64,000 nt of DNA from Selenomonas bovis DSM 23594. Lineage in GTDB: Bacteria > Bacillota > Negativicutes > Selenomonadales > Selenomonadaceae. The translations under genes were made by a program, and so were the position numbers. The stretch is taken from positions 1-64,000 of the forward strand of contig NZ_KB908381.1 of assembly GCF_000381005.1 (NCBI RefSeq). The letters run 5' to 3'. The notes beneath the pieces are model-generated. The model made no database searches. It saw only the letters and a program-made list of their open reading frames with translations, and had not been told where the DNA came from. Shown here piece after piece: positions 1,203 through 16,189 of this stretch; within the stretch, counting starts at the first letter, position 1; every line of letters begins with the position of its first letter.

Positions 1203-1226
1203 GTCAGCGACATGCTCAAAAGTAGC

Positions 1227-1250: not shown

Positions 1251-1251
1251 C

Positions 1252-1278
1252 AAACAAAAATAGCCGCCCGCAGGCGGC
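1252..1278 (-). terminator. Rho-independent terminator, minus strand (copy 2 of hairpin repeat)
   Basis: The hairpin GCCGCCCGCAGGCGGC (1263-1278) is identical to that at 59-74. On the minus strand it is followed by TATTTTTGTTT. It would stop transcription entering from the integrase side. Together the two copies bracket the SLATT / phage protein / TIR segment. Confidence 0.6.
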
Positions 1279-1448
1279 ACGATTTGCAGCAGCCGTTGAC
1301 AAGACGGCCCTGAGTTGCCTCGTACGAGGCAGCTGGATAAGAAGGTGGTTGTCGGCCACCCCGCGCCGGACGCCCGTAGGCGTGCCGAGGCTTGTGGTTT
1401 CAGTATAACATATTCCCGTGGGACGCGCCACGGAGAAAGGAGCACATC
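1279..1448 (+). promoter_or_regulatory. Structured leader of the integrase gene
   Basis: This 170-base stretch before the integrase holds three short dyads: TGCCTCGTACGAGGCA (1316-1331, perfect), GGTGG/CCACC around a 7-base loop (1344-1360) and ACGCCCGTAGGCGT (1370-1383). A -10-like TATAAC lies at 1404-1409 without a clear -35. The ribosome-binding site GGAGAAAGGAG is at 1432-1442. The hairpins suggest either a structured 5' leader or binding sites for the integrase or an excisionase; I do not recognise a known RNA class. Confidence 0.4.
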
Positions 1449-2480
1449 ATGAGACTGCCAAACGGATACGGTTCGATTACGAAACTCTCTGGCAAGCGCC
1501 GCAAGCCCTATGCCGTCAAAGTAACGAAAGAATGGACGGATGACGGGAAGCAAGTGCAGAAGTATCTTGGTTACTACGAAAGCCGGGCAAAAGCTATCAA
1601 AGCCCTTGCCGACTACAACGAGCACCCCTACGACATTGACGCTACCGCGGCCACCTTTGCCACCCTCTATGAGAAATGGAGCAAGCTCACATACACGGAT
1701 CACGGCGAACCCGTTCCGAATACCTACATTGCCGCCTACAAGCGCCTCCCGCGCCTGCACGATATGCCGTTCGTCGACATCCGCGCCCGCCACATACAAG
1801 GCGAGCTTGACGCCTGCGAGCTTGGATACAGCACGCAGAAGATGATGAAGACCCTCTGCAACAAGCTCTTCGCGCTTGCCATCGACTGCGAGATCGTAAC
1901 GGTCAACTATGCGAAGAACGTGAAGCTGCCGCCGAATGAGGTAAGCCGCAAGCACCAGCCATTCGATGACGACGAACTCGCGATCCTCTGGCGGCATACC
2001 GACGACTTTTCCGCCTGCCTTGCGCTCGTCCTCTGCTACACCGGGTTCCGTCCGACAGAGCTCCTGCGCATCAGAAAAGAAAACGTCCACCTCGACGACC
2101 GCGTCATGTTCGGTGGTATGAAAACAGCGGCTGGCAAAAACCGTGCCGTCCCCATCGCCAAGAAGATATTTCCAATCATCGAGCGCTGGATGCAGACGGG
2201 CGGCGAGTATCTCGTCATGGACCCACGCGACGGAAAGCCTGTCCTGACCTACGACCGCCTGCGCGGTCGCATCTGGGAACCGTCGGATCCTCTCAAGCTC
2301 CTCCCGCGCCAGCACCTCCCGCACGATGGCCGCCACACCTGCGCCACCCGCCTAGACGATGCAGGCGTCAACATCAAGGTCACGCAGCTCATCCTCGGCC
2401 ATCGCGCCTCCGACATCACACGCAAGGTCTACACGCACAAAACCTACGCTCAACTAATCGAAGCCATTGACCAAATATAG
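1449..2480 (+). CDS. int: Tyrosine recombinase / phage integrase
   Basis: A 343-residue tyrosine recombinase that would insert and excise the element. The N-terminus (MRLPNGYGSITKL) is typical of integrases of Firmicute temperate phages, with an AP2-like arm-binding region, then a SAM-like core-binding domain at about 60-150. The catalytic domain has the first Arg in CYTGFRPTELLRI, HDGRHTCATRL (H-x-x-R box), LGHRAS and the nucleophile Tyr in RKVYTHKTY. ATG 1449 follows a strong ribosome-binding site. The gene points towards rpsI, whose 3' end begins 165 bp downstream, with arm-type repeats between. This makes rpsI the likely attachment neighbourhood. Confidence 0.93.
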   Translation: MRLPNGYGSITKLSGKRRKPYAVKVTKEWTDDGKQVQKYLGYYESRAKAIKALADYNEHPYDIDATAATFATLYEKWSKLTYTDHGEPVPNTYIAAYKRLPRLHDMPFVDIRARHIQGELDACELGYSTQKMMKTLCNKLFALAIDCEIVTVNYAKNVKLPPNEVSRKHQPFDDDELAILWRHTDDFSACLALVLCYTGFRPTELLRIRKENVHLDDRVMFGGMKTAAGKNRAVPIAKKIFPIIERWMQTGGEYLVMDPRDGKPVLTYDRLRGRIWEPSDPLKLLPRQHLPHDGRHTCATRLDDAGVNIKVTQLILGHRASDITRKVYTHKTYAQLIEAIDQI

Positions 2481-2491
2481 CGGCTCTCTTT

Positions 2492-2551
2492 TGTAACTTG
2501 TGTGTAACTTTTATGTAACTTGTGCGCCGGTTTTGATACGCTATTTGATAC
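2492..2551. repeat. Putative integrase arm-type site array
   Basis: TGTAACTT occurs at 2492-2499, 2503-2510 and 2514-2521, exactly 11 bp apart, with a fourth copy at 2619-2626. TTTGATAC occurs at 2532-2539 and 2544-2551, and TTGATAC again at 2630-2636. Direct repeats phased by one helical turn directly behind an integrase gene look like arm-binding sites of an attachment region. The crossover core itself cannot be placed, because the other end of the element is outside the window. Confidence 0.55.
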
Positions 2552-2584
2552 ACTGAGACGTCTTTCCAAAAATAAAGAGAACTG

Positions 2585-2619
2585 AAAAAGCCCGCCAGCA
2601 TTGAGCTGACGGGCTTTTT
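2585..2619. terminator. Bidirectional terminator between integrase and rpsI
   Basis: AAAAAGCCCG...CGGGCTTTTT forms a stable hairpin with A-run and T-run on both sides, so it can serve the integrase transcript and the rplM-rpsI transcript. Confidence 0.85.
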
Positions 2620-2644
2620 GTAACTTGCATTGATACTCTTGGCT

Positions 2645-3037
2645 TTAACGCTTCGAGAACTGAGATGCTTTGCGAGCTTTCTTGAGGCCGTACTTACGAC
2701 GCTCTTTCTCGCGCGGATCGCGCGTAACGAAGCCGGCTTTCTTGAGAGCCGGACGAAGCTCTGCGTCCATTTCCATGAGCGCACGCGTGATGCCGTGGCG
2801 GATGGCGCCTGCCTGCCCCGTCACGCCGCCGCCTGCAACATTGGCAATGACATCGTACTTATCAACCGTCTCCGTGAGGTTGAGCGGTTGACGAACGATG
2901 AGCTCGAGTGTCTTGAGACCGAAATACTCTTCCATATCACGACCGTTGATCGTGACCTTCCCCTCGCCTGGAACCAGACGAACACGGGCAACGGACGATT
3001 TTCTGCGGCCGGTGCCGTAGTAGCTGACTTGTGCCAT
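2645..3037 (-). CDS. rpsI: Ribosomal protein S9
   Basis: A 130-residue protein of the small ribosomal subunit, with the full length of the family. It begins with [16 protein letters not shown] and ends in the conserved, Lys/Arg-rich FSKR tail that reaches into the ribosomal P site. It lies 24 bp behind rplM in the usual rplM-rpsI operon. The last codons are intact although a phage-like element is inserted just beyond the gene, as expected if integration restores or spares the 3' end. Confidence 0.98.
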
Positions 3038-3061
3038 GTAGTATGTTCCTCCCTTTCCAGA

Positions 3062-3502
3062 TTAGCGGATGTTGAGCTCGAGTTTCTCGGGCTTCTGTGC
3101 TGCATGCGGATGCTCCGGGCCAGCATAGACGCTGAGCTTGCGGTACATCTGCGCGCCGAGGCGGTTATGCGGAAGCATGCCTTTGATGGCATGCTCGAGG
3201 ACACGCGTCGGGAACCGATCGAGCATCTGGCCCGCCGGCGTGAACGTCGTGCCGCCCTGATAACCAGAATGACGGAAATACGTCTTATCGATGAGCTTCT
3301 TGCCCGTGAACTTTACTTTCTCTGCATTGATGACAATGACATAATCACCCGTATCCACATGCGGAGTATACGTCGGTTTATTTTTACCGCGAAGAACTTT
3401 TGCGACTTCGGCTGCGAGGCGGCCGACCGTCTGGCCTTCAGCGTCTACAACATACCATTTGCGTTCGATATTGGATGCATTTGCCATAAACGTTGTCTTC
3501 AT
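3062..3502 (-). CDS. rplM: Ribosomal protein L13
   Basis: A 146-residue large-subunit ribosomal protein, first gene of the rplM-rpsI operon. Family motifs include [16 protein letters not shown] near the N-terminus, [12 protein letters not shown] and the GMLPHNRLG segment. The start follows GGGGGGAAATCGC. A strong promoter lies 103 bp upstream, leaving a leader of about 95 bases. Confidence 0.98.
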
Positions 3503-3604
3503 GCGATTTCCCCCCTAGATGTAAAATCAATGTTCAGCATTATGATGACCGAAACAGGCTTCCGGGGCTAATGGAAACGCTCGTTCATGACATCACATAG
3601 AAAT

Positions 3605-3633
3605 ATTTTACAGAGAAGGCGATGCGAAGTCAA
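3605..3633 (-). promoter_or_regulatory. rplM-rpsI promoter with A/T-rich upstream element
   Basis: On the minus strand TTGACT and TAAAAT are separated by 17 bases. Directly upstream of the -35 lie A- and T-tracts (3634-3660) that form an imperfect dyad, resembling the UP element of strongly expressed ribosomal promoters. The untranslated leader (about 3503-3598) has several short complementary segments and may hold an L13-type autoregulatory structure; this is not established. Confidence 0.7.
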
Positions 3634-3717
3634 GCTTTTTTCACAAAAAGGTGAAAAAATTTTCAGGGGGGGCGTGTATGTGACGGAAACATGTTCTAAT
3701 CATCGCCGTACGCGTTC

Positions 3718-4437
3718 TCATCCATCAATCGTTCCTTTTCCACCTGCACTGAGCTGCCGCGTGTTGTGCGCGACAGCTGCCAGTCCTTGCAGGTCGAGGA
3801 TGGTCAGATGTCCCCGCCCCGGCTTTACGAGTTTTTCCTGCGCGAAATATTTTACAAGGCGGCTCACGACCTCGCGGGCGCTACCCATATAGCGCGCAAT
3901 CTGCTCATGCGTGAGATGGATTTCCAAGCTACCAGCCTTTTTCGTCTCTTCGAGAAGAAAAATTGCGAGACGTCGATCTGCGGAGAGAAATAAAATCTGC
4001 TGCATGCGCCAAAGCATCTCCGAAAGACGGCGTGCGGCCATTTCATAGGCATAGGCCTTGACATAGATATTTTCTTGTAGTAATCGGTTAAACACTGAGG
4101 CTTCTGTTCTCAGGACATCCGTATCCGCGACCGCCTCTATGGAAACCGGGAACGTGACCGCGTCCAATGTACAAGCGGCAGAGAGAATACCGACATCGCC
4201 GGGGAACAGGCGGTAGAGCGTCACATCACGGCCGTCTTCAGAGAGCGTGTAGACACGGAGCTGTCCTTCCTTGACGAGCAGGATGCCCAGGCAATCGCCG
4301 GGGTCGCGGTGAAGCTGCGCGCCGCGTACGAAACGAACTGGGTGCGTGCCGGCGTTGACGAGCGACTTCTCCTTGTTCGTCAGTTGTTTCCAAAAGCTGA
4401 ATGTGCGGATGTAGAGGTCTGTGGCTTCCCCTTGCAT
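3718..4437 (-). CDS. Crp/Fnr-family transcriptional regulator
   Basis: A 239-residue regulator. The N-terminal two thirds is a cyclic-nucleotide-binding-like beta-roll (GILLVKEGQLRVYTLSEDGRDVTLYRLFPGDV spans two strands and the turn), followed by a long dimer helix and a C-terminal winged helix with LTHEQIARYMGSAREVVSRLVKYF, the Crp/Fnr recognition motif. There is no N-terminal four-cysteine Fe-S cluster as in Fnr, only scattered cysteines (about 48 and 88). Ligand and targets are unknown. It lies alone between prs and rplM, with the prs terminator upstream. The start has AGGAGGATTGCC in front. Confidence 0.88.
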   Translation of the reverse strand: MQGEATDLYIRTFSFWKQLTNKEKSLVNAGTHPVRFVRGAQLHRDPGDCLGILLVKEGQLRVYTLSEDGRDVTLYRLFPGDVGILSAACTLDAVTFPVSIEAVADTDVLRTEASVFNRLLQENIYVKAYAYEMAARRLSEMLWRMQQILFLSADRRLAIFLLEETKKAGSLEIHLTHEQIARYMGSAREVVSRLVKYFAQEKLVKPGRGHLTILDLQGLAAVAHNTRQLSAGGKGTIDG

Positions 4438-4539
4438 GGCAATCCTCCTCTGCTCTGTCTCATATACTAGGATACTGCAATATATGCGGCGCGCAGCGCC
4501 TCACGAAGGGCGCTTACGCATATTTTTGTGAACAGGTGC

Positions 4540-4565
4540 AAAAAAGCCTCCCCGCGCGGGAAGGC
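4540..4565 (-). terminator. Terminator behind prs
   Basis: On the minus strand GCCTTCCCGCGCGGGGAGGC is followed by TTTTTTG, closing the ispE-gntR-glmU-prs unit. Confidence 0.85.
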
Positions 4566-4584
4566 GAAAAACAATCAATATATC

Positions 4585-5532
4585 TCAGCGGAAGAGCTGG
4601 CTGACGCTCCGATGGCTCTGGATGCGGATGATGACGTCTGCAATCGGTTCAGCGAGGGAGAGAACGACGATCTTGTCACTGGCCTTCTCTGGTGGCAGCG
4701 GAATCGTATCCGTGATGATGAGTTTCTCGATGGGCGAATCATTGATGCGCTGCACCGCAGGGTCAGAGAGGATCGCATGGGAGCAGGAGGCGAAGATTCT
4801 CTTTGCGCCACGTTTCTGGAGCGCGCGCGCACCTTCGCAGAGCGAGCCCGCCGTATCGACGATATCGTCGATGATGACAGCGGTCTTGCCCTCGACATCA
4901 CCAATGAGGTTCATGACTTCAGCACAGCCCGGCTTCGGACGGCGTTTCTCGATGATGGCGATCGGCGCCTGCAGATGATCCGCGAGGATGCGCGCGCGCG
5001 TGACACCACCGAGATCCGGCGAGACGACAACGACATCCTCGAGCTTCTGGGCACGGAAATAGTTGGCAATGGTCGGCGCAGCAGCCAGATGATCCACAGG
5101 GATATCAAAGAAGCCCTGAATCTGGCCTGCGTGCAGGTCGACGGTCACGACACGCGTCACGCCAGCCGTCGTCATGAGGTTGGCAACCAGCTTGGCGGAA
5201 ATCGGCTCACGGCCGCGCGTTTTGCGATCCTGGCGCGCGTATGCATAGTATGGCACAACCGCCGTGATGCTATGCGCCGAGGCGCGCTTGCAGGCATCCG
5301 CCATGATGAGAAGCTCCATGAGATTGTCGTTGACTGGATACGACGTCGGCTGGATGATAAAAATATCCTTGCCGCGAATGCTCTCGCTGATCATGACCTG
5401 GGTTTCGCCATTGTTGAAATGACCGACATAAGCATCGCAAAGATTGACGCCGATGCGATCCGCAATCTTGTTGGCGAGCTCAGGGTTCGCATTGCCGGCC
5501 AGGATGACCAAATTTCCAGTGTCTAAAGCCAT
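4585..5532 (-). CDS. prs: Ribose-phosphate pyrophosphokinase
   Basis: A 315-residue enzyme making PRPP from ribose 5-phosphate and ATP for nucleotide, His, Trp and NAD synthesis. It has the class I features: an ATP-binding region with YARQDRKTRGREPIS, the catalytic-loop neighbourhood VDLHAGQIQGFF and the PRPP-binding loop IIDDIVDTAGS. ATG 5532 was chosen because GGAGGAG lies 9 bases upstream; a TTG further upstream overlaps that site. It follows glmU by 90 bp, the same order as in Bacillus. Confidence 0.97.
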   Translation of the reverse strand: MALDTGNLVILAGNANPELANKIADRIGVNLCDAYVGHFNNGETQVMISESIRGKDIFIIQPTSYPVNDNLMELLIMADACKRASAHSITAVVPYYAYARQDRKTRGREPISAKLVANLMTTAGVTRVVTVDLHAGQIQGFFDIPVDHLAAAPTIANYFRAQKLEDVVVVSPDLGGVTRARILADHLQAPIAIIEKRRPKPGCAEVMNLIGDVEGKTAVIIDDIVDTAGSLCEGARALQKRGAKRIFASCSHAILSDPAVQRINDSPIEKLIITDTIPLPPEKASDKIVVLSLAEPIADVIIRIQSHRSVSQLFR

Positions 5533-5622
5533 TTTGTTAAACTCCTCCAATTCTAGGGAACATGCGAATGCCGTTGTTTCCCCATTCAGAAAACGAATGA
5601 TTACCTCGTAATGAGTTTATCA

Positions 5623-6990
5623 TTATCTTTTGCGTTTGTCCACCCAGCCGGTGATATTCTTCTGGCGCGCACGCGCGACGGCCAGCGTGTCCTTCGGCAC
5701 GGTCTGCGTGATGGTCGAGCCAGCTGCAATGTAGGCACCATCCTCTACGGTGACGGGGGCGACGAGGTTCGAGTTGCAGCCGACGAAAGCATTGTTACCA
5801 ATTTTGGTACGGAATTTCTTTTTGCCGTCATAGTTGACTGTGATTGTACCGCAGCCCATATTGACGTTCTCTCCCATGTCGCAGTCGCCGATATAAGAAA
5901 GATGCGGCAATTTCGATCCCTTGCCGATGGTGGAGTTCTTGACCTCGATGAAGTTGTCAATCTTCACGCCCTCGCAGATATGTGTACCAGGACGCAGGTG
6001 AACGAACTGTCCAAGCTTCACATGGTCGTCGACGACGGCATCATGGGCATAGAGGAACTGTCCCGTGACATCGTTGCCGATCTTCGTATTCTGGATACGG
6101 ACGGAAGGCCCGATCTCGCAGTTCTCGCCGATGACCGTGCCGCTCTCGAGGTACGTCATGGGATAGAGTACGGTATCGCGTCCTACCTCGACGTCTGCGT
6201 CGACAAACGTCGTCGCGGGGTCGATGATGGAGACGCCTGCGGCCATGAGTTCCTCATTCTTGCGCTGGCGCAGAATGTGCTCTGCCTTGGCAAGCTGGGC
6301 ACGGCTGTTGACGCCCAGCGTCTCCTCAAAATCATCCGCGGCGACAGCCCAGATGCGCTCGCCCTGCTTCTTCAGGATGCCGAGGACGTCTGGCAGATAG
6401 TACTCGCCCTGCGCGTTATCGTTCGTGACCTTCTCGAGTGCGGCAAAGAGTGCCTGTGCGTCGAAACAATAAATGCCAGAGTTGACTTCCTTGACGGCGC
6501 GCTCTGCCTCTGTCGCATCTTTGTGCTCAACGATTTTCTCGACGGAGCCGTCTGTCTGACGGATGATGCGACCGTAGCCTGTGGCGTCTGGCATGACAGC
6601 TGTCAGGACGGTTGCCTTTGCTTGGGCCGCGATATGCTCGTCATAGAGTTTTCTCAGGAGCGCGCCCGTAAGCAAGGGTGTATCACCGCAGAGCACCATG
6701 ATGGTCCCCTGCGTATCTTTCAGGAGCGGAGCCGTCATCTTGACCGCGTGGCCTGTGCCGAGCTGTTCCGTCTGCGTCACAAACTCAGCCTGGTCGGCCA
6801 GCGCCTCGCGCACCTGGTCGCCACCAAAGCCCGTCACGACGATCTGGCGCGTTGCACCGGCCGCCTTGGCTGCTGCCAGCACATGCGCCACCATCGCTTT
6901 GCCGCCAGCCTTGTGCAGAACTTTCGGCAGGGTGGATTTCATGCGCGTCCCCTTCCCCGCCGCAAGAATCACTGTTACTAAATCCGACAT
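5623..6990 (-). CDS. glmU: Bifunctional GlmU (GlcN-1-P acetyltransferase / GlcNAc-1-P uridyltransferase)
   Basis: A 455-residue cytoplasmic enzyme that makes UDP-GlcNAc for peptidoglycan and LPS. The N-terminal nucleotidyltransferase begins VILAAGKGTRMKS and contains GTGHAV and LCGDTPLL. The C-terminal left-handed beta-helix (about 250-455) has hexapeptide repeats and the acetyltransferase segment IGCGTITVNYDG-like (NMGCGTITVNYDGKKK). Family length is normal. It lies between a GntR regulator and prs. Confidence 0.98.
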   Translation of the reverse strand: MSDLVTVILAAGKGTRMKSTLPKVLHKAGGKAMVAHVLAAAKAAGATRQIVVTGFGGDQVREALADQAEFVTQTEQLGTGHAVKMTAPLLKDTQGTIMVLCGDTPLLTGALLRKLYDEHIAAQAKATVLTAVMPDATGYGRIIRQTDGSVEKIVEHKDATEAERAVKEVNSGIYCFDAQALFAALEKVTNDNAQGEYYLPDVLGILKKQGERIWAVAADDFEETLGVNSRAQLAKAEHILRQRKNEELMAAGVSIIDPATTFVDADVEVGRDTVLYPMTYLESGTVIGENCEIGPSVRIQNTKIGNDVTGQFLYAHDAVVDDHVKLGQFVHLRPGTHICEGVKIDNFIEVKNSTIGKGSKLPHLSYIGDCDMGENVNMGCGTITVNYDGKKKFRTKIGNNAFVGCNSNLVAPVTVEDGAYIAAGSTITQTVPKDTLAVARARQKNITGWVDKRKR

Positions 6991-7016
6991 ATAGGATCCT
7001 CCTTCTATTATGGAAG

Positions 7017-7733
7017 TTACTTGGCTGCTTTCCTGGCCCGCTTCGTCTTTTCATTTTTCTTGTTGGCATCCACGGCTTTGAGCAGCGTCTTTTCTGACAT
7101 CTCCATATGATGTTCCGCCGCTTTCTTCGCACGCTTCACGTCGCCTTCCGCAATGGCCTCCACGATTTCTCGATGTTCCTCCAGCGTCGTCTCCAGGCGT
7201 CCCGGATAGGACATAGACAGCGTGCGAAAACGCGTGAGCTGCTCACGCAGGTTGGAAATGATGCCGACGAGACGGCTGTTGCGCGCCGCGCGATAGAGCA
7301 GATCGTGGAACTCGATATCCGTCTCGACAATCTTATCCATGTTGCCCTCTTCGACATAGCCGCCGATCATCACGAGCAGACGCTGCAGGCTCTCAAGCTC
7401 CTCATCGGTAATGCGTTCCGCCGCCAGGCCGTTGGAGAGCGACTCCAGTGCCGTGCGAATCTCGAAAATCTCATTGATGTCACGGATGGACATGCTCGCG
7501 ACATACGTGCCGCGCCGCGGCATCATGATAACATAGCCCTCGAGCTCTAGCTTGCGGATGGCCTCGCGGACAGGCGTACGGCTCACGCCGAGTTCCTCAG
7601 CGAGCTGGATCTCCATGAGGCGCTCACCTGGTTTCAACACGCCGCGTCGAATGGCATCTCGCAAGGATTCACAGACGACTTCTCTTAGCGGCTGGTAGCT
7701 GTCCAGCTTGATCGGTGATAGCTTCTTTTCCAT
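7017..7733 (-). CDS. GntR-family regulator, FadR subfamily (FCD domain)
   Basis: A 238-residue DNA-binding regulator. The N-terminal winged helix has the GntR signature LAEELGVSRTPVREAIRKLELEG, cut here around residues 45-68. The C-terminal helical FCD ligand domain shows FHDLLYRAARN and a terminal HMEMSEK with candidate metal-binding histidines. A basic tail ends the protein. It sits between ispE and glmU, where Bacillus carries purR, so it may be co-transcribed with essential precursor genes. Ligand and targets are unknown. Confidence 0.9.
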   Translation of the reverse strand: MEKKLSPIKLDSYQPLREVVCESLRDAIRRGVLKPGERLMEIQLAEELGVSRTPVREAIRKLELEGYVIMMPRRGTYVASMSIRDINEIFEIRTALESLSNGLAAERITDEELESLQRLLVMIGGYVEEGNMDKIVETDIEFHDLLYRAARNSRLVGIISNLREQLTRFRTLSMSYPGRLETTLEEHREIVEAIAEGDVKRAKKAAEHHMEMSEKTLLKAVDANKKNEKTKRARKAAK

Positions 7734-7746
7734 AGCAGAGAATCCC

Positions 7747-8622
7747 TCATTTCCTCATAGATTTTGCCGTCTTCGTAACGAATACGTCCACAGCCGGAAG
7801 CTGTCGAAGTGCCTCGGCAATGTGCTGCGCATGCGCGCCATCCTCTGCAATGCCAAAGACGGTCGGGCCGCTGCCAGACATGAGGCTCGCGCGTGCGCCG
7901 TACTGCAGCATTTTCTCTTTTAATTCTGAGATAATGCCATACTTTTTCATAGTAACACTTTCAAGGACGTTAGACAATAAGGAAGCAATCCTTTTGTCAT
8001 CTTTGTCTATGATGGCGCGTTTCATCTGATCGGTTTGCGGGTGACTCTTTGCAGGTGCAGCGTCATAACTCTTGTACGCCCAAGCGGTAGAGACAGAAAC
8101 GTGTGGCTTGGCGAGGACGATGTCTGCTGTCGGCATATCTGGCAGGCGCTCGAGCTTCTCCCCACGGCCAGTGGCGAGCATTGTTCCGCCCAGCAGCGTG
8201 AAGGGAATATCAGAGCCGAGTTTCGCGCCGAGCGCGCAGAGTTCCTCATCGGAGGCCCCCAGGGCGAACAGCTGGTTCATGCCGCGCAGGACAGCAGCCG
8301 CATCAGCACTGCCGCCGGCAAGACCAGCGGCGACAGGAATCCGCTTGGTCAGCTGAATCTCTACGCCATCCTTGATGCCATACGTCTGGCGCATGAGCTC
8401 AGCTGCACGCCACGCGAGATTGGATGCGTCCGCGGCGAGCCAGGGAACATCAATGGCAAGATGAATGTAGCTGTCCTTAGCCACCTGGAGTATCAGGGTA
8501 TCCGAAAGTGCTACGGACTGCATCACCATCGCGACCTCGTGGAAGCCATCCTCCCTTTTTCCGAGTATGTCAAGTGTCAGGTTGATTTTTGCCAAGCCTT
8601 GTATTGTCTGCAAAGTCACCAC
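7747..8622 (-). CDS. ispE: 4-diphosphocytidyl-2-C-methyl-D-erythritol kinase
   Basis: A GHMP-family kinase of about 290 residues in the MEP isoprenoid pathway; it phosphorylates the CDP-methylerythritol intermediate. Seen are LAKINLTLDILGKREDGFHEV at the N-terminus (substrate-binding region), the ATP-binding glycine-rich loop PVAAGLAGGSADAAA and the late motif LMSGSGPTVFG. The start is uncertain: GTG 8622 sits only 2-3 bases behind GAGGGAG, while TTG 8616 has an 8-base spacing and may be the true start. A good promoter is at 8650-8678. Confidence 0.95.
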   Translation of the reverse strand: MVTLQTIQGLAKINLTLDILGKREDGFHEVAMVMQSVALSDTLILQVAKDSYIHLAIDVPWLAADASNLAWRAAELMRQTYGIKDGVEIQLTKRIPVAAGLAGGSADAAAVLRGMNQLFALGASDEELCALGAKLGSDIPFTLLGGTMLATGRGEKLERLPDMPTADIVLAKPHVSVSTAWAYKSYDAAPAKSHPQTDQMKRAIIDKDDKRIASLLSNVLESVTMKKYGIISELKEKMLQYGARASLMSGSGPTVFGIAEDGAHAQHIAEALRQLPAVDVFVTKTAKSMRK

Positions 8623-8649
8623 TCCCTCATCATCATGATTCCCTTCCCA

Positions 8650-8678
8650 ATTTTAGCAATTTTTCTTTTGTACGACAA
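8650..8678 (-). promoter_or_regulatory. ispE operon promoter
   Basis: On the minus strand TTGTCG and TAAAAT are 17 bases apart. It is divergent from the promoter at 8686-8714, with only 7 bases between the two -35 boxes. Confidence 0.65.
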
Positions 8679-8685
8679 GTTTCCC

Positions 8686-8714
8686 TTGCTGACAACCAGA
8701 TTCTGTACGATAAT
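8686..8714 (+). promoter_or_regulatory. Promoter of the P-type ATPase-like gene
   Basis: TTGCTG and GATAAT with a 17-base spacer. Transcription would begin near 8721, which argues against translation starting at ATG 8724 and favours TTG 8757. Confidence 0.65.
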
Positions 8715-8756
8715 TGTGATGATATGGGTTGCCAGGAAAAAATGGGAGGGATTCTC

Positions 8757-9962
8757 TTGGGAAATTCTATTTCCAGTCGGCAACAACTGATTGCCGCTAT
8801 TGTACTCGCGCTCCTGTTCGGCTTTTATCATGGCATGACGGGAACGATTGTGCGCGGAGGACTCGTATTTTGTTCCACGCTTCTTGTCTGTCTCCCCCTA
8901 CCTGGAATGCTTGCGACGTGGCTGGCGCAAAAACGCGTCCTACAGCAGGCGGAGTCGCTGGGTGCCGCATTACTACGGCCGCAGCGGTTGGTAGTGCTCG
9001 CGGAGACGGACACGCTGCTATTCCCCTATCGGGGTGTTCTGACGCAGGGAGAGCCGCACATTGCCGCGCTCATGCCTGAGGGGATGTCGCAGGCTGGTCT
9101 GCTCGCGCTCGCTGCCGCCGCCGAGCGCGATGCGACACATCCTATCGGCTGCGCCATCTATGCGACGGCAATGGAACGATGCCTGCGTCTGCCGCGCGTC
9201 TCCGCGCAGGCAGAGCAGGCACATCACGGCGCGGAGGCACTCTGCACCGGAGATACAGTCCGGGTGGGAGCAATCGACTGGCTTAGAGCGGAAGGCGTGC
9301 ATTTCAGTGCTGAACTCCTGACGACAGCGGATCAGATGTATTGCCGCGGCGAAAGTGTTGTCGCGTTGAGCATGGGCAAACGCGCCCGAGGTTTGATTGC
9401 ACTCAGCTATGACATGTCGGATAGCGTGCGTGCGGTGCTTGCTGAGCTAGCGCGCGCGGATATGACACCCATATTGTTCACCTCATCGGCACAGAAATTC
9501 GCGCACGCCCTAGCAAAGCAGCTCGGTATCAGCACCGCCTATGGCAATCTATCAGCGAAAAAATGTGCGCGGGAGACACAATTCCTCCAGTCGCGCGGTC
9601 ACATTGTCGCGCTGCTGGACATGGCGGCCAACCCTAGCCAGATCCCCCCAGGAACGGCAGACGTCCATTTGGTCATATCATCCTCGCAGTCCGCAGAGAC
9701 GGGCAAAGATACGGCGTCAGACGTAGCTGACATTGCAATTCCCTCCATCGCGGCATTGCCCCCGCTGCTCGCACTCAGCAGGCGGATGTCAGTTGCCTGC
9801 AACCATAGCCACAGTATCGCGTTTTTCGGCGCACTGATTTTCCTCCTCTCAGCTACAATCTTTTTTCCGTGGTTCGATGGAAGTTTTATGTCGCCGCATA
9901 TTGCTGTCACCTGCCTGCTTTTCCTCGTACTGCTCGCCCTTCTTCCCATAAGAAGAATATAA
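8757..9962 (+). CDS. Catalytically degenerate heavy-metal P-type ATPase homologue
   Basis: A 401-residue protein that follows the order of a P1B-type ATPase from the membrane helices before the phosphorylation site to the C-terminus. Two TM segments (about 10-26 and 31-53, with CLPLP where metal pumps have CPC) precede the P-domain. The segment equivalent to FDKTGTLTEG reads FPYRGVLTQG (89-98), so the phosphorylated Asp is Pro90. The nucleotide-domain HP pair is kept (H128-P129), but TGDN is TSSA (242-245) and GDGxND is LDMAANP (287-293). Two more TM segments end the protein. It therefore cannot form the phosphoenzyme, yet the frame is open and it has a promoter and a GGGAGGG site 6 bases before TTG 8757. 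Possible roles are metal sensing, a scaffold or a regulator of another pump; unproven. Confidence 0.75.
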   Translation: MGNSISSRQQLIAAIVLALLFGFYHGMTGTIVRGGLVFCSTLLVCLPLPGMLATWLAQKRVLQQAESLGAALLRPQRLVVLAETDTLLFPYRGVLTQGEPHIAALMPEGMSQAGLLALAAAAERDATHPIGCAIYATAMERCLRLPRVSAQAEQAHHGAEALCTGDTVRVGAIDWLRAEGVHFSAELLTTADQMYCRGESVVALSMGKRARGLIALSYDMSDSVRAVLAELARADMTPILFTSSAQKFAHALAKQLGISTAYGNLSAKKCARETQFLQSRGHIVALLDMAANPSQIPPGTADVHLVISSSQSAETGKDTASDVADIAIPSIAALPPLLALSRRMSVACNHSHSIAFFGALIFLLSATIFFPWFDGSFMSPHIAVTCLLFLVLLALLPIRRI

Positions 9963-9993
9963 AAATAGGTCTGTATCCGCAAAGATTCTCCAA

Positions 9994-11703
9994 TTATTTC
10001 ATCGCGTGATCGTAATCCATACCTTGGATGATACGCGTACGATGTACCTTGAATTCTGCATTTACCAGACTTTTCGACGCATCGTATTCCGGAGTGCGGA
10101 TATTGAGAAGATCGAGCAGGGTATGAATCATATCATCTGTCATATATGGTCGTTGCACGGCGGCACAGATCTGCTGCCATTTTTCCGGATGGGTAGTGCG
10201 CCAGGCCGGTGAGCCATAGATGATCAGGGGAACCTCCAGCATGTAGCGGTTCGGATGTTCCTCAACATGGCCTGACATGTTGGAATCATTGTCATAGACG
10301 GCTTCGCCATGATCCGGCAGATAGACGACGAGCGCATTCTTATCCGCGAATTTCTCGATGAGAGAGCTCACGATGTAGTCATTGTAATAAATCGCATTGG
10401 CGTACTGCGCGATTTCCGTGCGTTTGGCCTCGCTATAGCTATTTTCCGGAGCTGCGAGATCGTCTTTCAGGAATTTCGTGAAAAGATACGGGTAACGGAA
10501 ATAATAGAGGCCGTGTCCGCCCATGAGATGAATGACGTAGAAATCTTTCCCGGAGCCATGTGCGATTGCATCGTCCACCAGCGGGAACAGCGCTTCATCC
10601 AAGGTGGTATTCTCCTCATGCGATTCCCGCATGCGCGTGAAGACTTTCGTTGTCGAGCGGTTGGCGAAGATTTGCGCTACATTCCCCCAGATGCCGGAAC
10701 TTTCCTGATTTGATATCCAATGTGTTGCATAACCGGCTCTGTTCATGACATCGATGAGGTTGTTGGTCTCGTACCACGGCTGCCCCGCGGCCACGCTTTC
10801 CTCATCTGCAAAGGTGAAGAGTTTCCGCAGCACGGCGACGGTCGCTCCCTCAGGGCTGATGACATCGCGAAAAACTGCAATTTTCCCCTCCGCAGCCATT
10901 GCATCGAGATTGGGCGTATTTTTCAGCGGATAGCCGTAGAGGTGCATACGTCCTCTGGCTGTCGCTTCTCCGAGGATGAAGACGACTTGAGGCGTGTCAC
11001 TGTCATTTTCTGTGATTTCCACTCGGTTTTCCATGGAGTCTGCAAGTTTTTGATAGGCCTTGATATTCTCTACAGAGACAGCCGTCGCTTGCCCCACGCT
11101 GACAAGCGGGATGTCAAGAGTGCCGCTCAAGATGAAGTTCATGTAGTGTTTGAGCAGTAATGTTCCTGCCAGTACGCCGAAAATAGATACAGCGAGGAAG
11201 ATGCGGTTCCGCCCGCGACGGCTTGGCCAGGCCAGGCGCTTTTGGAACAACCACCCCCATCCCAGTGCAAGCAGGAGGAAGAAAGTACTGACAGCCAGCA
11301 GGCTGCGCCAACCGAAATACATGGAGAGGAACTCTCCTGCTTCCTGCGGATTCGTCTGCAGGATGGCGGTAATGATGCCTGCGCCAACCAATGTCTGATA
11401 TGTCGTGATAGCGAAAATTTCCAGGCCGGCCAATGCCGCTGATACTATGACGGACAGTCCGAGCAGCAACTGGCGCAGACGGTGGCAAGGCACACAAGCG
11501 AGCAGTACGACATAGACGCAGGCACCGAAAAACAGGAAGGCACCGTCCAGTAACAGGACGGGAATCTGTGTATCTTGATACTGCGTGAGATTCTGCCAGA
11601 CAATCGTGAAATAATTCATGAGAAACAGCAAGATGATCCAGCCGATATGCGTTTCCGTCAGATATTCCGCCGCAGCCAGCAGTGATAAGACTCTTTTCTT
11701 CAA
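9994..11703 (-). CDS. Phosphoethanolamine transferase of the sulfatase family (EptA/CptA-like)
   Basis: A 569-residue inner-membrane enzyme that would transfer phosphoethanolamine from phosphatidylethanolamine to lipid A or core sugars on the outer side of the membrane. About five TM segments occupy residues 18-185. The catalytic alkaline-phosphatase-like domain starts at FILGEATARG (243-251), where Thr248 is the likely nucleophile, continues with HLYGYPLKNTPNLD and holds the metal-binding LPDHGE near 480. The start is TTG, with AGAGG 8 bases upstream. Its presence implies an outer membrane, and modification of LPS usually lowers binding of cationic peptides. Exact acceptor unknown. Confidence 0.85.
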   Translation of the reverse strand: MKKRVLSLLAAAEYLTETHIGWIILLFLMNYFTIVWQNLTQYQDTQIPVLLLDGAFLFFGACVYVVLLACVPCHRLRQLLLGLSVIVSAALAGLEIFAITTYQTLVGAGIITAILQTNPQEAGEFLSMYFGWRSLLAVSTFFLLLALGWGWLFQKRLAWPSRRGRNRIFLAVSIFGVLAGTLLLKHYMNFILSGTLDIPLVSVGQATAVSVENIKAYQKLADSMENRVEITENDSDTPQVVFILGEATARGRMHLYGYPLKNTPNLDAMAAEGKIAVFRDVISPEGATVAVLRKLFTFADEESVAAGQPWYETNNLIDVMNRAGYATHWISNQESSGIWGNVAQIFANRSTTKVFTRMRESHEENTTLDEALFPLVDDAIAHGSGKDFYVIHLMGGHGLYYFRYPYLFTKFLKDDLAAPENSYSEAKRTEIAQYANAIYYNDYIVSSLIEKFADKNALVVYLPDHGEAVYDNDSNMSGHVEEHPNRYMLEVPLIIYGSPAWRTTHPEKWQQICAAVQRPYMTDDMIHTLLDLLNIRTPEYDASKSLVNAEFKVHRTRIIQGMDYDHAMK

Positions 11704-11769
11704 TGGAAGTGCCTCTTTCTCTTTTCATTCTATGTGTTCTGAAACGTTGGATATCACTGAGGCAGTCAT

Positions 11770-11805
11770 AAAAATGCAGCTTCCCCCATGGGAAAGCTGC
11801 ATTTT
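11770..11805. terminator. Terminator behind the rubredoxin gene
   Basis: AAAATGCAGCTT and AAGCTGCATTTT form a long stem with A/T-runs on both sides. On the minus strand it ends the flavodiiron-rubredoxin transcript and separates it from the phosphoethanolamine transferase gene. Confidence 0.8.
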
Positions 11806-11869
11806 CACGCGCATCCATATCCGTTGGCAGAGTCGCCTTGCATCGGGTGCGCTGACGTCTAGTTCAGAC

Positions 11870-12028
11870 TCACTCTTTTTCAAACATTTCCTTGCCGACG
11901 CCACAAACCGGGCAGACCCAGTCGTCCGGCAAATCTTCGAATGCCGTGCCCGGTGCGATGCCGTTATCCGGATCGCCGACAGCGGGATCATACACATAGC
12001 CGCAAGGGCCGCATACATACTTGTCCAT
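11870..12028 (-). CDS. Rubredoxin
   Basis: A 52-residue electron carrier. It begins [19 protein letters not shown] and ends [14 protein letters not shown]; the two CxxC pairs (CGPC at 6-9 and CPVC at 38-41) bind a single iron. The core WVCPVCG and the [18 protein letters not shown] segment are typical. A GGAGG site precedes the ATG. It lies 19 bp behind the flavodiiron protein gene and is the obvious electron donor to it, for reduction of O2 or NO. Confidence 0.95.
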
Positions 12029-12047
12029 AATGGTACCTCCTACAATA

Positions 12048-13259
12048 TTACGCTTTATCTGCCGCTGGAGTCTCCTCCAGCAGCGCCTTCACCAACTCTG
12101 GAATCTTGGCAAAATCATCTTTACAGGGATTCCAGAGAGATTTTACATGTTCATCAATAACTGCGAAACCGGCATCTTGCAAGCTCTCCTGAAGGACTTT
12201 GACACCCTCGCCGCTCCAACCATAACAGCCGAAGGCTGCAGCACGTTTTTTCTTGAACTTCAGAGATTTCAAGAAGGCCAGCCAGCCTGTCACACTCGCA
12301 AGCACGCCATTGATATAGGTCGGTGAGCCCACAGCGATAGCGCGGGACTTGAAGACCTCCGTCATCACTTCGTTCTTGTCACTCTTGGCAATGTTGTATA
12401 CCTTGACGACGGTCGCAGGGCTCTGACGTTTTATCTCTTCGGCGATGGCATGCGCAATCGCTTCTGTGCCGTTCCACATCGTATCGTAGGCAATCGTGAC
12501 CTGATCCTCCTGATAGGCCTTTGCCCATTCATCGTACTTCTCTACGATGGTGAATGGTCTTTCGCGCCAGATCGCGCCGTGCGATGGCGCAATCATTTCG
12601 ATGGGAAGTTGCAGTGCCGCAATCTCCTCGAGCTTGCGGGGGATGAGCGCCGCAAACGGATTGAGAATATTGACAAAATACTTGAGCGCCTCATGCCAGA
12701 GGATCCCCTGTTCCGCTTTGTCTGCAAAGAGCTCGCTCGTCGCGTAGTGCTGCCCGAACGCATCCATAGAGAACAGGATGTTGTCTCCCGTGAGGAATGT
12801 CGCCATGGAATCCGGCCAGTGGAGCATCCGCATCTCGACGAATTGGAGCTTCTTGCCATTGCCGATGGGGAGTTCATCTCCCGTTTTGACAACATGGAAA
12901 TTCCAGCCGCGTTTCCCGTACTGTCCCTCGAGGCTCTTGACAGCCATCGCCGTGCAATAAAGCGGCGTTCCGGGGATTTCTTCAAGCAAATCTGCAAGTG
13001 CGCCGGAATGATCTGTCTCGCCGTGGTTCACGACGATGGCGTCGATTTTTTTGAGATCGATTTCCCGCTTGAGATTCTCAATGAAATCGAAGCGGTGCGG
13101 CGCCCAGACCGTATCGACGAGGATGGTCTTTTCCTCTTCAATCAGATAAGCGTTCTGGCTGGAACCGTGAAAGATCGAATAGTCGTCCCCGTGAAAGTTC
13201 TCAAGTTCCCAGTCGAGATAGCCTACCCAGCTCACGTTGCCTTTCACATGTCTCTTCAT
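12048..13259 (-). CDS. Flavodiiron protein (FprA/NorV core)
   Basis: A 403-residue cytoplasmic enzyme that reduces O2 to water and/or NO to N2O. The N-terminal metallo-beta-lactamase-like domain (1 to about 250) carries the di-iron ligands: HGETDH (79-84), the His of MLHWPDS, the Asp of LFSMDAFG and the His of APSHG. The C-terminal flavodoxin domain (about 255-395) starts [16 protein letters not shown], the FMN-binding loop, and includes [11 protein letters not shown] rubredoxin follows in the same operon. Upstream is a 13-bp dyad (13330-13342) that might be a control site. Confidence 0.95.
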
Positions 13260-13329
13260 CTATTTTCCCCCTCATCCCGTACCGGTTCTGCCAAGGGAGC
13301 AAAAAACGGCAACGAGATATCCCGATATA

Positions 13330-13342
13330 ATTCCTTCGGAAT
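13330..13342. promoter_or_regulatory. Dyad between divergent genes
   Basis: ATTCC-TTC-GGAAT lies between the flavodiiron gene and the gene at 13455. It is a perfect 5-3-5 inverted repeat in an otherwise AT-rich stretch and could bind a dimeric regulator. No factor can be named. Confidence 0.3.
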
Positions 13343-13382
13343 ATTTTATTCGACATCTCAGGTGCAGATTCCTGCCCCATTA

Positions 13383-13391
13383 TGCTATAAT
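13383..13391 (+). promoter_or_regulatory. Extended -10 promoter
   Basis: TGCTATAAT (TGn + TATAAT) lies 28 to 64 bases before the two possible starts of the next gene. A convincing -35 is not seen, which is usual for extended -10 promoters. Confidence 0.55.
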
Positions 13392-13454
13392 GAAATGAAA
13401 ATATTATGGGAGTACCGAATGAATCGATATTTCCTCAAACATGGAGGTCAGAGT

Positions 13455-14162
13455 ATGACACAGGAAGCATTTCACAAGCTCGTGCATCTTGTCATGGCTT
13501 CACCGGCAAAACCGCCGGAGAAGCTTTTCCTCGGCGGTATGGATGATTGGCATGCGCGGGCAAGGCTAGCGCATTTTCTCGCTATGCCCGCGGTCGGCAA
13601 GACAGAGGAGGCACTCGAACTCTTCCACTCCGTTGTCGAGGCGGATGTGGATGAAGAAAACGCTGAGGATGTCGAGGAGAAGGTCTTTGCGCTCCAGAAG
13701 CTTTCTGATCTTGAGCGCAAGCAGGACAATGCGGCAGAGGATGCCCTGCGTCATATCGATGCGGCCATCGAGCTTGCAGAGAGCACGGACTTTCTCTATA
13801 AATATATTCTGCGCGGCGAGCTTTGGGGCGATCGCTGGAATATCATGCATCAGCTCAAAATGAGCAAAGAAGCCGAGGAGGAAGTCGATGAGCGCATCGA
13901 AGCCTATAAGGATATCCCCGTCTCACATGTCAGCTATCTTTACTACGGGTACCGCTTCAAGGCCATGTTGGCCGCAGAGCGCGGAGTGACACTCGTGGCC
14001 AAGGATTACATGCACATGGCGCTTCATTCGATGGAGATCCCACCGCAGTATGAGGCGGGACTCGAAAAGGCTTTTTCCGCCACGCATGACAATGCATCTT
14101 GGATCCTCAACGAAGTCGATCGCGCGACACCGAATCCTGATACCGTACATTGGGATATCTGA
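13455..14162 (+). CDS. Conserved hypothetical protein, TPR-like helical repeats
   Basis: A 235-residue, acidic, almost entirely helical soluble protein. Repeated helix pairs such as KTEEALELFHSVVEAD, EDALRHIDAAIELAEST and EEVDERIEAYKDI look like tetratricopeptide-type units, suggesting protein binding. No catalytic motif or signal peptide is seen and I do not know the family's function. ATG 13455 was chosen because GGAGG lies 7 bases upstream; an in-frame ATG at 13419 also has a possible site (GGGAG). Own promoter; transcribed divergently from the flavodiiron operon. Confidence 0.7.
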   Translation: MTQEAFHKLVHLVMASPAKPPEKLFLGGMDDWHARARLAHFLAMPAVGKTEEALELFHSVVEADVDEENAEDVEEKVFALQKLSDLERKQDNAAEDALRHIDAAIELAESTDFLYKYILRGELWGDRWNIMHQLKMSKEAEEEVDERIEAYKDIPVSHVSYLYYGYRFKAMLAAERGVTLVAKDYMHMALHSMEIPPQYEAGLEKAFSATHDNASWILNEVDRATPNPDTVHWDI

Positions 14163-14211
14163 TCAATCACTGTTTCATATAGTGGTTCCCGGTGCAAACG
14201 AGAAAAAACAC

Positions 14212-14240
14212 TTGCAAGAGCGCTATGCCTATGGTATAGT
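14212..14240 (+). promoter_or_regulatory. Promoter of the T-box transcript
   Basis: TTGCAA and TATAGT are separated by 17 bases, with an extra TGG just before the -10. Transcription would begin near 14247, right before the riboswitch. Confidence 0.75.
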
Positions 14241-14261
14241 GTATTCAATATCGCATCAGCG

Positions 14262-14487
14262 ATGATGAGAAGAGTAAAGCGAATGTGTAGCTGGCAGAGA
14301 GAATGCGGTTGGTGAAAGCATTCAGAACCGTCGCTTGAAAGCTGACTCAGAGCTGCAGGGAGGTATATCCCCTGCCGTTGGCCGCGTTAAGGCATTGAGT
14401 GGCCGGACGTATCTTCGTGTTCGGCTGACAAAGGTGGTACCACGGGAAACAGAGCCTCGTCCTTTTTCGGACGAGGCTTTTCTTTTT
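14262..14487 (+). ncRNA. T-box riboswitch, specifier codon GCU (alanine)
   Basis: Stem I shows the AGTA / GAA loop-E pair (AGTA about 14274, TTGAA 14335-14339) with AAGCG pairing to CGCTT and TGAG to CTCA. AGAGAG and GGTTGGTGAAA mark the distal part. In the position used by known T-boxes (GAA-n-codon-purine) lies GCT at 14341-14343, so uncharged tRNA-Ala is the expected ligand. The T-box AAGGTGGTACCACGG (14431-14445) can form the antiterminator and bind the tRNA NCCA end. The competing terminator is GCCTCGTCC/GGACGAGGC followed by T's (14454-14485). Class is certain; the specifier is my reading of the structure. Confidence 0.92.
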
Positions 14488-14522
14488 CTTGTCAGGTGGT
14501 CAAGCAGAATGGAGGAAATGGC

Positions 14523-15002
14523 ATGCGTGAACTTTTAGAGCTTTTAGAGCACGATGCGCGTCGCCCGGTCAGTGAGATCGCGCCCATGCTCGGCAAGAGC
14601 GAATATGAGGTTGAGCAGGATATCAAGCGTCTGGAGAAGGACAAGGTGATTCTCTCCTACAACACGCTCATCAACTGGGAAAAGTTCGGCGACAACATGG
14701 TGACAGCCATCATCGAGGTGAATCTCATGCCGCAGCGCGAGGTCGGTTTCGATGCGATTGCGGAACGTATCTATCGATTCGATGAGGTCCGCACTGTCTA
14801 CCTCATGAGCGGCAGTTTCGACCTCATGGTCATCATTGAAGGAAAATCTCTGAAAGATGTCGCGAATTTTGTCTCGACGCGCCTCTCCACCATCGAGGGC
14901 GTCACGCAAACGCGCAGCCATTTCATCCTCAAGCCGTACAAGAAAGACGGCGTCATCATCAACGATGAGGAACGTGACCGCAGATTGGTGGTGTCGCCCT
15001 GA
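14523..15002 (+). CDS. Lrp/AsnC-family regulator
   Basis: A 159-residue regulator. The N-terminal helix-turn-helix (about 1-60) includes ARRPVSEIAPMLGKSEYEVEQDIKRLEKD and the C-terminal RAM/AsnC effector domain shows RTVYLMSGSFDLMVIIEGKSL. GGAGG is 7 bases before ATG 14523. It lies directly behind the alanine T-box and overlaps the aminotransferase start by one base (TGATG). B. subtilis has the same pair, alaR-alaT (yugG-yugH), for alanine synthesis, so this is probably the alanine-responsive regulator of that enzyme. Confidence 0.88.
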   Translation: MRELLELLEHDARRPVSEIAPMLGKSEYEVEQDIKRLEKDKVILSYNTLINWEKFGDNMVTAIIEVNLMPQREVGFDAIAERIYRFDEVRTVYLMSGSFDLMVIIEGKSLKDVANFVSTRLSTIEGVTQTRSHFILKPYKKDGVIINDEERDRRLVVSP

Positions 15003-16189
15003 TGAAGACGGAAAAAGTTTTCCAGGATCGCCTCTCTCCTGCGGTTCGATCCATCAAGCCGTCCGGTATCCGCAAGTTTTTCGATATTGCCGCCAAGATG
15101 GAAGATGTCATCTCACTCGGTGTCGGCGAACCAGATTTCGTCACGCCGTGGCCGATTCGCGAGAGCTGCGTCTATGGTTTGGAGCAAGGATATACTTCCT
15201 ATACCGCCAACCGCGGGCTACCGGAGCTGCGCGAGGAGATTGCTCGCCGCTATGCCGATGTTTATGAAACGCATTACGATGCGGCGACGGACATCCTCGT
15301 GACAGTCGGTGTCAGTGAGGCGCTCGACCTCGCGATGCGCGCGCTTCTCGCGCCTGGGGATGAGGTACTCATTCCGGAGCCATGTTATGTCTCCTATCAG
15401 GCCTGCACGATTCTCGCTGGCGGCGTTCCCGTCGCCGTGCCCGCCAAGCAAGAGAATGAATTCCGCATCACACCCGCCGAGCTCGAGGAGCACGTGACAC
15501 CACGGACGAAGGTCTTGCTCATTGGTTATCCGAACAATCCGACGGGTGCGATCATGACGCGCGAAGACTTGCTGGCGATTGCAGATTTTGCGCAGAAGCA
15601 TGACCTTATCGTAATCTCAGATGAAATCTACGGCGACCTTACTTATGGCGGCGAAGCGCATATCTGCTTCTCCTCCCTGCCCCGCATGCAGGAGCGCACG
15701 TTGCTGCTCAACGGTTTTTCCAAAGCGTATGCCATGACAGGCTGGCGCATCGGCTATGCACTCGGCGCACCGGAAATCATCGCCGCCATGACGAAAATCC
15801 ATCAGTATACGATGCTCTGCGCTCCCATCACGGCACAGCTCGCAGCCATCGAGGCGTTGCGTCACGGTGAAAAGTATATGAAAAAAATGGTCGCGGAATA
15901 CGATCGCCGTCGTCGGCTCATTTACGAGGGCTTTATGAAGATGGGACTGAACTGCTTCGAACCGAAAGGCGCTTTCTATATTTTCCCCGATATCACGAGT
16001 ACAGGCTACACGAGTGAGGAGTTCGCGGAGAAACTTCTTGAGGCTGAGCATGTGGCGCTCGTTCCAGGTAGTGCGTTCGGCAACTGCGGCGAGGGGCATG
16101 TCCGTTGTTCCTACGCGACGTCGGTTGATAAGATTTCCGAAGCGCTCGCGCGCATCGAGAATTTCGTCCGCCACCACAAGAAAGCGTAA
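15002..16189 (+). CDS. Class I/II PLP aminotransferase, probably alanine transaminase
   Basis: A 395-residue fold-type I aminotransferase. Seen are the substrate-side motif ISLGVGEPDF, YPNNPTG, the Asp of VISDEIYGDL that pairs with the pyridine nitrogen, the PLP lysine in GFSKAYAMTGWRIG and the C-terminal substrate Arg in GHVRCSYA. Sequence alone allows aspartate, aromatic or alanine specificity. The GCU T-box and the Lrp partner point to an AlaT-type role, making alanine from pyruvate and glutamate. That substrate is inference; the family is certain. Confidence 0.93.
   Translation: MKTEKVFQDRLSPAVRSIKPSGIRKFFDIAAKMEDVISLGVGEPDFVTPWPIRESCVYGLEQGYTSYTANRGLPELREEIARRYADVYETHYDAATDILVTVGVSEALDLAMRALLAPGDEVLIPEPCYVSYQACTILAGGVPVAVPAKQENEFRITPAELEEHVTPRTKVLLIGYPNNPTGAIMTREDLLAIADFAQKHDLIVISDEIYGDLTYGGEAHICFSSLPRMQERTLLLNGFSKAYAMTGWRIGYALGAPEIIAAMTKIHQYTMLCAPITAQLAAIEALRHGEKYMKKMVAEYDRRRRLIYEGFMKMGLNCFEPKGAFYIFPDITSTGYTSEEFAEKLLEAEHVALVPGSAFGNCGEGHVRCSYATSVDKISEALARIENFVRHHKKA

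Follow-up and report, generated by a model that had tools for sequence, protein, structure and literature searches.

Few membrane enzymes have been studied as thoroughly as the P-type ATPases, and MJ0968 is a soluble, P-type-ATPase-like phosphatase that represents the isolated catalytic part of such a pump. The pineal splice variant of ATP7B, PINA, lacks the metal-binding domains (MBDs) and the first four helices and shows weak copper transport, according to the passages of that study used here (PMC3750203). In TMEM94/ERMA the catalytic loops of a P-type ATPase fold are degenerate (DKQGI, GSSANL), and the parts of the source on which we draw report that the Asp is kept and is necessary for Mg2+ uptake (PMC13322241).

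Here we describe a gene found within positions 1 to 64,000 of contig NZ_KB908381.1 of Selenomonas bovis DSM 23594; this whole stretch of 64,000 nucleotides is hereafter referred to as the window. Its product shares with MJ0968 the isolated catalytic part of a P-type ATPase; MJ0968, however, keeps the Asp and its activity and has no membrane helices. The product is homologous over its whole length to the P1B-1 ATPase CopA (3rfu, 7r0g, 3a1c), with the same P/N fold and helices M3-M6, but it is about half as long, lacks the phosphorylated Asp, the A domain, CPC, TGDN and GDGxND, and its constraint has moved to the N domain. PINA, in the passages cited, is likewise a copper pump naturally shortened from the N-terminus to its C-terminal part, but is a splice form of an active gene (PMC3750203), whereas the present gene is separate, evolving and seemingly dead in catalysis. 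TMEM94/ERMA, as far as the cited parts describe it, differs in being mammalian, in retaining the Asp and the A, P and N domains, and in not being a P1B copy (PMC13322241). Our searches of an open-access library found no description of a dead, kept and widespread lineage derived from P1B ATPases.

The window gene and its predicted structure

The pseudo-CopA gene diverges from ispE, which together with gntR and glmU marks the ancestral locus. The features of this part of the window are as follows.

5623..6990, minus strand: glmU, conserved neighbour (name from reading of the sequence)
7017..7733, minus strand: GntR-family regulator gene, conserved neighbour (name from reading of the sequence)
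7747..8622, minus strand: ispE, divergent neighbour (name from reading of the sequence and the initial annotation)
8744..8749, plus strand: likely ribosome-binding site GGGAGG, 7 nt 5' of the TTG (from the sequence)
8757..9962, plus strand: pseudo-CopA gene, 401 aa, TTG start, stop included, frame open
8775..8957, plus strand: helices M3 and M4, residues 7-67 (AlphaFold2 model and alignment; membrane position inferred)
9024..9026, plus strand: codon of Pro90, which replaces the phosphorylated Asp of DKTGT (sequence and alignment)
9048..9407, plus strand: N (nucleotide-binding) domain, residues 98-217, the conserved part, with E123, H128, G158, G171, W175, T189, D192 and Q193
9408..9746, plus strand: P domain, second part, residues 218-330, with TGDN and GDGxND lost (alignment)
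9747..9953, plus strand: helices M5 and M6, residues 331-399 (model; membrane position inferred)
9994..11703, minus strand: phosphoethanolamine-transferase-like gene, convergent (name from the initial annotation)

The layout of GGAGG followed by TTG is also found in four aligned copies from the same genus (g1). A good promoter, which the initial annotation had credited to the gene, found no backing: a scan of 8500-10100 with the sigma-70 consensus gave no plus-strand site, and one minus-strand site against 0.9 expected by chance. The phosphoethanolamine-transferase-like gene lies downstream in several g1 genomes too. From 9994 to 16189 the window holds phosphoethanolamine-transferase-like, flavodiiron-like, AsnC-type regulator and aminotransferase genes (names from reading of the sequence), and this order is kept in several genomes of the genus.

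The window protein matches the NCBIfam model TIGR01525 with an E-value of 1.3e-23, far below the model's cut-off for a full pump, and the copper ATPase 3rfu in the PDB with an E-value of 1.8e-18 over residues 17-389; given these values, its homology to P1B ATPases is not due to chance. It corresponds to the latter half of a copper-transporting P1B ATPase, comprising M3-M6 and the P and N domains, in agreement with the initial annotation, which had placed it from the late membrane helices onward and had noted that the N-terminal metal-binding and first membrane parts are absent. Alignment shows the first half of the pump to be missing, that is, the metal-binding domain, the first helices and the A domain (TGES), and a Pfam search of the window protein gave no match to an HMA domain. 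Aligned with intact pumps, the protein has PYRGV in place of DKTGT (Pro90), TSSA in place of TGDN and LPL in place of CPC, Pro47 in M4 being the surviving residue; GDGxND is lost (DMAANP), and the HP pair (residues 128-129) is kept, with E123 also present. The losses of DKTGT, TGDN and GDGxND and the retained HP had been correctly recognised in the initial annotation, as had the intact frame.

AlphaFold2 predicted a P-type ATPase fold for the window protein (pLDDT 93.1, pTM 0.85), and the copy from S. ruminantium was modelled with similar scores (pLDDT 93.2, pTM 0.86). The best match among solved structures is to the AMPPCP-bound P/N domains of CopA (3a1c; Z 28.5, rmsd 2.1 over 271 residues). 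Over the whole chain, the fit to CopA 7r0g (Z 24.1, rmsd 3.3 over 388 residues) is tied with that to a calcium pump, SPCA1 7yag (Z 24.7, rmsd 3.4 over 389 residues), so that whole-chain fold alone cannot separate P1B from other P-type pumps. The model contains helices for four putative membrane spans, fewer than the six or more core helices of an active P1B pump. The weak copper transport of PINA, which is without MBDs and the first four helices, would favour a half-pump that still carries copper by another mechanism; PINA, however, is described in the passages cited only as an N-terminal truncation (PMC3750203), whereas here the Asp, CPC, the A domain and the signature residues of M5/M6 are lost as well, and we regard continued transport as extremely improbable.

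Distribution in the Selenomonadaceae and descent from a pump operon

Among 189 Selenomonadaceae genomes searched, 170 gave a match at E<=1e-22. Six of these matches are pumps with DKTGT (G015, G021, G029, whose copy runs off its contig, G030, G098 and G164), which leaves 164 genomes by subtraction, only some of whose copies were read; two genomes below the threshold (G036 and G070) also carry copies that have lost their catalytic motifs, hereafter dead copies. We read 126 dead copies, 108 in a first set, 16 in a second and two more (L287 and L288). The Asp is missing from 106 of the 107 copies in the first set that are readable at this position (the 108th is truncated there), from 16 of 16 in the second and from both of the last, or 124 of 125 in total, the loss of the Asp in the window copy being shared by its orthologues; the sole copy that keeps the Asp (L053) is without the A domain. 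Its replacements in the first set are varied (Pro 29, Gly 22, Ser 19, Ala 16, Asn 10, others 10), which indicates that the position is free and has not been reused. Dead copies were seen in 23 of 30 genera (with L037 counted), and their frames are open in 22. An intact pump occupies the ispE locus in two genera (g16 and g25) and another site in two others (g10 and g24); in g8, g11 and g23 the genome search found no copy. Sequencing error as the source of the motif losses was rejected in view of this family-wide pattern. To judge from the sequences, then, the pseudo-CopA is a family-wide gene and no peculiarity of the window genome.

All 53 family members aligned match TIGR01525 at E<=0.001, and a family profile matches CopA 3j08 with an E-value of 2.6e-85. 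GDGxND and CPC are lost, the Pro of CPC (LPL in the window copy) alone being kept. The A domain is absent from the window copy and from the other short and middle-length forms; the dead copies of g6 keep it, with TGES replaced in five of five (TGKK, TGKK, TGIK, TGDS, TGSF). The alignments A1 and A4 hold 53 and 45 sequences, respectively, out of 112 loci read; five broken or interrupted loci (L034, L035, L037, L048 and L085) were left out of both and of the larger FastTree tree, and L100 was left out of A1 and A4. In L100 (G081) the dead copy forms part of a 587-aa open frame, longer than in its g9 relatives, perhaps through loss of a stop codon. In one form without the A domain (L052, g30), a long charged linker rich in Glu, Arg and Lys stands in its place.

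In a class-wide search of 300 genomes, the matches listed (to about E 4e-41) included, outside the family (f1), only frames of at least 743 aa. One short frame from outside the family (G058, 432 aa) was rejected as a candidate: DKTGT, CPC and GDGIND are present, and it is a piece of an interrupted ordinary pump. A scan of genome contigs with the window protein found no relative, and the same kind of scan with alignment A3 returned 17 named loci. All matches in a plasmid search were below 60% identity, and the five listed carry annotations as ordinary copper pumps. Almost every genome also has a pump of the CopA type, 177 of the 189 giving a match above the TIGR01511 cut-off; in the window genome itself, an 875-aa frame encodes a CopA that has DKTGT.

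The dead gene is divergent from ispE, and mostly adjoins it, in 48 of 108 loci from 18 genera. At the same place g25 (L261) carries csoR (88 aa), copA (738 aa, with DKTGT, TGES and CPC), cydA, cydB, cydD and cydC, and in g16 (L058) csoR-copA stands at the ispE locus with cydA about 10 kb further on. Since intact csoR-copA pumps occupy the ispE locus, the dead gene owes its position to a pump operon that included a regulator of the CsoR type; its ancestor was an intact pump next to ispE, which two genera still have. In L261 the csoR-copA-cydABDC genes lie on one strand (447-9194), linking a pump under a CsoR-type regulator to cytochrome bd. Cytochrome bd contains no copper. In g11 (L263, L269) cydA is one gene from ispE, in g23 (L264) it adjoins ispE, and in both genera the pump gene is missing; with cydABDC beside ispE or one gene away, the absence in these three loci amounts to a clean loss between conserved neighbours.

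A role as accessory or assembly factor of cytochrome bd might be suspected from this arrangement, as the dead copy is seemingly co-transcribed with cyd genes in several genera: in 31 of 108 loci, from eight genera, the dead gene is followed directly by cydA on its own strand (some of the other loci are too short downstream to tell), the gap to the cydA match being 34-662 bp. The linkage predates the dead protein, however, being present around the intact g25 pump. In addition, a dead copy occurs in 16 of the 20 cydA-negative genomes among those listed (there are 14 further negatives, and some genomes are incomplete); dN/dS is 0.096 in g7 (L051/L141), a genus without a row among the cydA-positive genomes; and g8, g11 and g23 have cydA without a dead copy. 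We therefore consider such a role improbable. The cydABDC genes of the window genome are at another locus (L267), and the dead gene has no constant partner next to it: besides ispE and cyd, its neighbours in S. ruminantium, g2, g28 and g13 are unrelated.

In a gene tree of 53 rows (LG+C20), drawn from the 118 rows of a larger FastTree tree, the dead copies (38 rows) form a single clade with support of 100/100, nested among CopA proteins of the ispE type and separate from the 860-aa CopA. Given this one clade, convergent loss in many lineages was set aside as first choice. In the larger tree the earliest branches are the dead g6 forms of full length; next come forms of about 540-720 aa that have no A domain, and last the short forms of about 400 aa, although the short form of g22 falls in the middle group. 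This order suggests a stepwise reduction in which phosphorylation was lost first, then the A domain and then the N-terminal helices, several of the forks being weak in the 53-row tree. A tree of IspE, GntR and GlmU, covering 35 of 44 taxa, places g24, whose csoR-copA pair is not at the ispE locus, next to genera that have dead copies (95/88). An AU test on the same three proteins gave a p-value of 0.044 against a single clade of all 32 rows other than g16, g24 and g25, and a FastTree analysis of the same genes joined the intact g25 with g6 at 0.83. Either a regained pump or more than one loss would fit these linked-gene trees.

Selection on the remaining domains

Over the shared part, dN/dS lies between 0.045 and 0.235 in 27 of the 28 close pairs for which it could be computed, indicating purifying selection; the remaining value, 0.40, comes from two frameshifted copies, and five pairs out of the 28 include a frameshifted copy. 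When 18 pairs were pooled and split by domain, dN/dS was 0.059 in the N domain, 0.10-0.11 in the P domain and 0.15-0.17 in the helices. Using one matched set of seven genomes, we compared identity among the dead copies with that among their active paralogues: the values are 42.6 vs 47.0% for the N domain, 22.0 vs 79.8% for M3-M4, 22.7 vs 79.6% for M5-M6, and 31.3 vs 81.3% and 27.8 vs 68.1% for the two parts of the P domain. Between the window copy and its nearest relative (G005), dS is saturated overall (pS 0.765, pN 0.313), and identity is 75% in the N domain and 35-50% in the other parts. These comparisons show a shift of constraint to the N domain at the level of sequence, as though the pump had been hollowed out around it. 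The membrane helices are the least conserved part of the dead copies (20-22% identity).

Of the 126 copies read, six are broken, and three of the six belong to the genus of the window. There, three of seven copies (G001, G002, G003) carry different frameshifting indels, namely a 17-bp tandem duplication, a 74-bp deletion and an 8-bp deletion, some of which may be assembly faults; with three of seven frameshifted, the gene looks dispensable in this genus. Three further copies contain in-frame stops (G034, G200, G061). Together with the absence of the gene between kept neighbours in g11 and g23, these lesions speak for a functionless remnant in slow decay. Such an explanation is at odds with dN/dS values below 1 in all 28 pairs and at or below 0.235 in 27, with one domain being the most constrained (as it is between the window copy and G005), with open frames in 22 genera and with confident models of two members, and we judge it very unlikely. 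The initial annotation had itself held that an intact DKTGT or broken frames in relatives would point to recent decay or sequence error. Both kinds of relative exist, in the frameshifted copies of the genus and in the DKTGT pumps at the ispE locus of two other genera; we read the former as local loss and the latter as the ancestral state, and we do not see the whole lineage as decaying. Its proposal of a maintained pseudoenzyme is thus upheld: because the Asp is lost in 124 of 125 copies, purifying selection acts across the family and the P-type ATPase fold is predicted with confidence, the gene is, on sequence and model, a maintained, family-wide and seemingly dead pseudoenzyme derived from CopA.

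The N domain and a possible sensor role

Weighted by genus across 22 genera, the dead copies keep E123 at 98%, H128 at 91%, P129 at 86% and both G158 and G171 at 100%; G156, the first Gly of GxG and a His in the window copy, is kept at 80%. At several positions they are more uniform than 15 pumps (R169 94 vs 27%, W175 86 vs 40%, T189 89 vs 27%, D192 94 vs 47%, Q193 91 vs 27%), and E273 behaves likewise. As the ispE-type pumps share the same residue at several of these positions, the fixed residues mostly reflect retention from the ancestor and not a new design.

A short piece of the S. ruminantium copy aligns without gaps, though weakly (E 0.37), to the N domain of human ATP7B, bringing W175, T189 and Q193 onto W1153, D1167 and D1171; the window piece aligns likewise to another ATP7B, also weakly (E 0.69). 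In the passages of a modelling and binding study used here, W1153, D1167 and D1171 are placed at the modelled ATP site of ATP7B (PMC3203118). The same passages report that the H1069Q variant binds ATP like the wild type, which makes a kept His weak evidence of nucleotide binding, and that ATP7B has Mg-binding Asps in a triad of a kind that CopA is without (PMC3203118). In the dead copies these Mg-binding Asps are Thr and Gln, the window copy has Ala172 where ATP7B has an Asn near the ATP, copies from g13 are often without the HP pair, and the phosphate-holding loops of the P domain are gone. The alignment to ATP7B is thus a hint at the face of the N domain that is under selection and no proof of nucleotide binding.

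The N domain might instead be kept purely as a protein-protein surface, the protein serving as a scaffold or as a regulator that partners, for instance, the active CopA of 860 aa, with nucleotide binding incidental or lost. The near-universal presence of a CopA-type pump, the helix 184-193, which is more uniform than in pumps, and the partial loss of HP in g13 are in keeping with this. The membrane helices, though, would be the likeliest contact with another pump and are the least conserved part; genera without a dead copy have CopA too (G013, G016, G028); and the pocket positions E123, G158 and G171 are nearly invariant. On balance we regard a purely protein-binding role as unlikely, if less so than the alternatives weighed above.

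We give roughly even odds to a vertically inherited, CopA-derived pseudoenzyme that works as a putative membrane-tethered, non-hydrolysing nucleotide-binding receptor. Its ancestor would have been a CopA pump with a single HMA domain, once part of a csoR-copA-cydABDC operon beside ispE and passed on by vertical descent. The A domain is gone, and so are the CPC copper site and the Asp that is phosphorylated in the pump; what remains, the P/N fold and four helices, is predicted with confidence. The N domain may bind an adenine nucleotide, or a partner via the same face, without hydrolysis; the P domain would act as scaffold and M3-M6 as anchor, and the binding state may be read out by some partner protein. 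Nucleotide binding without hydrolysis is a clear and easily tested prediction. Only tentatively can this be extended to the proposal that a whole family turned a copper pump into a membrane-tethered sensor of adenine nucleotides, with chiefly the N domain kept under selection and the intermediates still alive in different genera.

For the dead copies, annotation by homology as 'heavy-metal ATPase' would mislead. A single family contains the intact ancestor at the same locus, dead forms of full length, others that have no A domain and others again with four helices, which gives a direct view of the shift of constraint and of the order in which parts were probably lost. In the Selenomonadaceae a dead copper pump thus seems to have been converted to another use, perhaps as a membrane-anchored sensor; if this is true, the family would offer a class of receptors with the P-type ATPase fold, together with a stepwise record of the passage from pump to pseudoenzyme.
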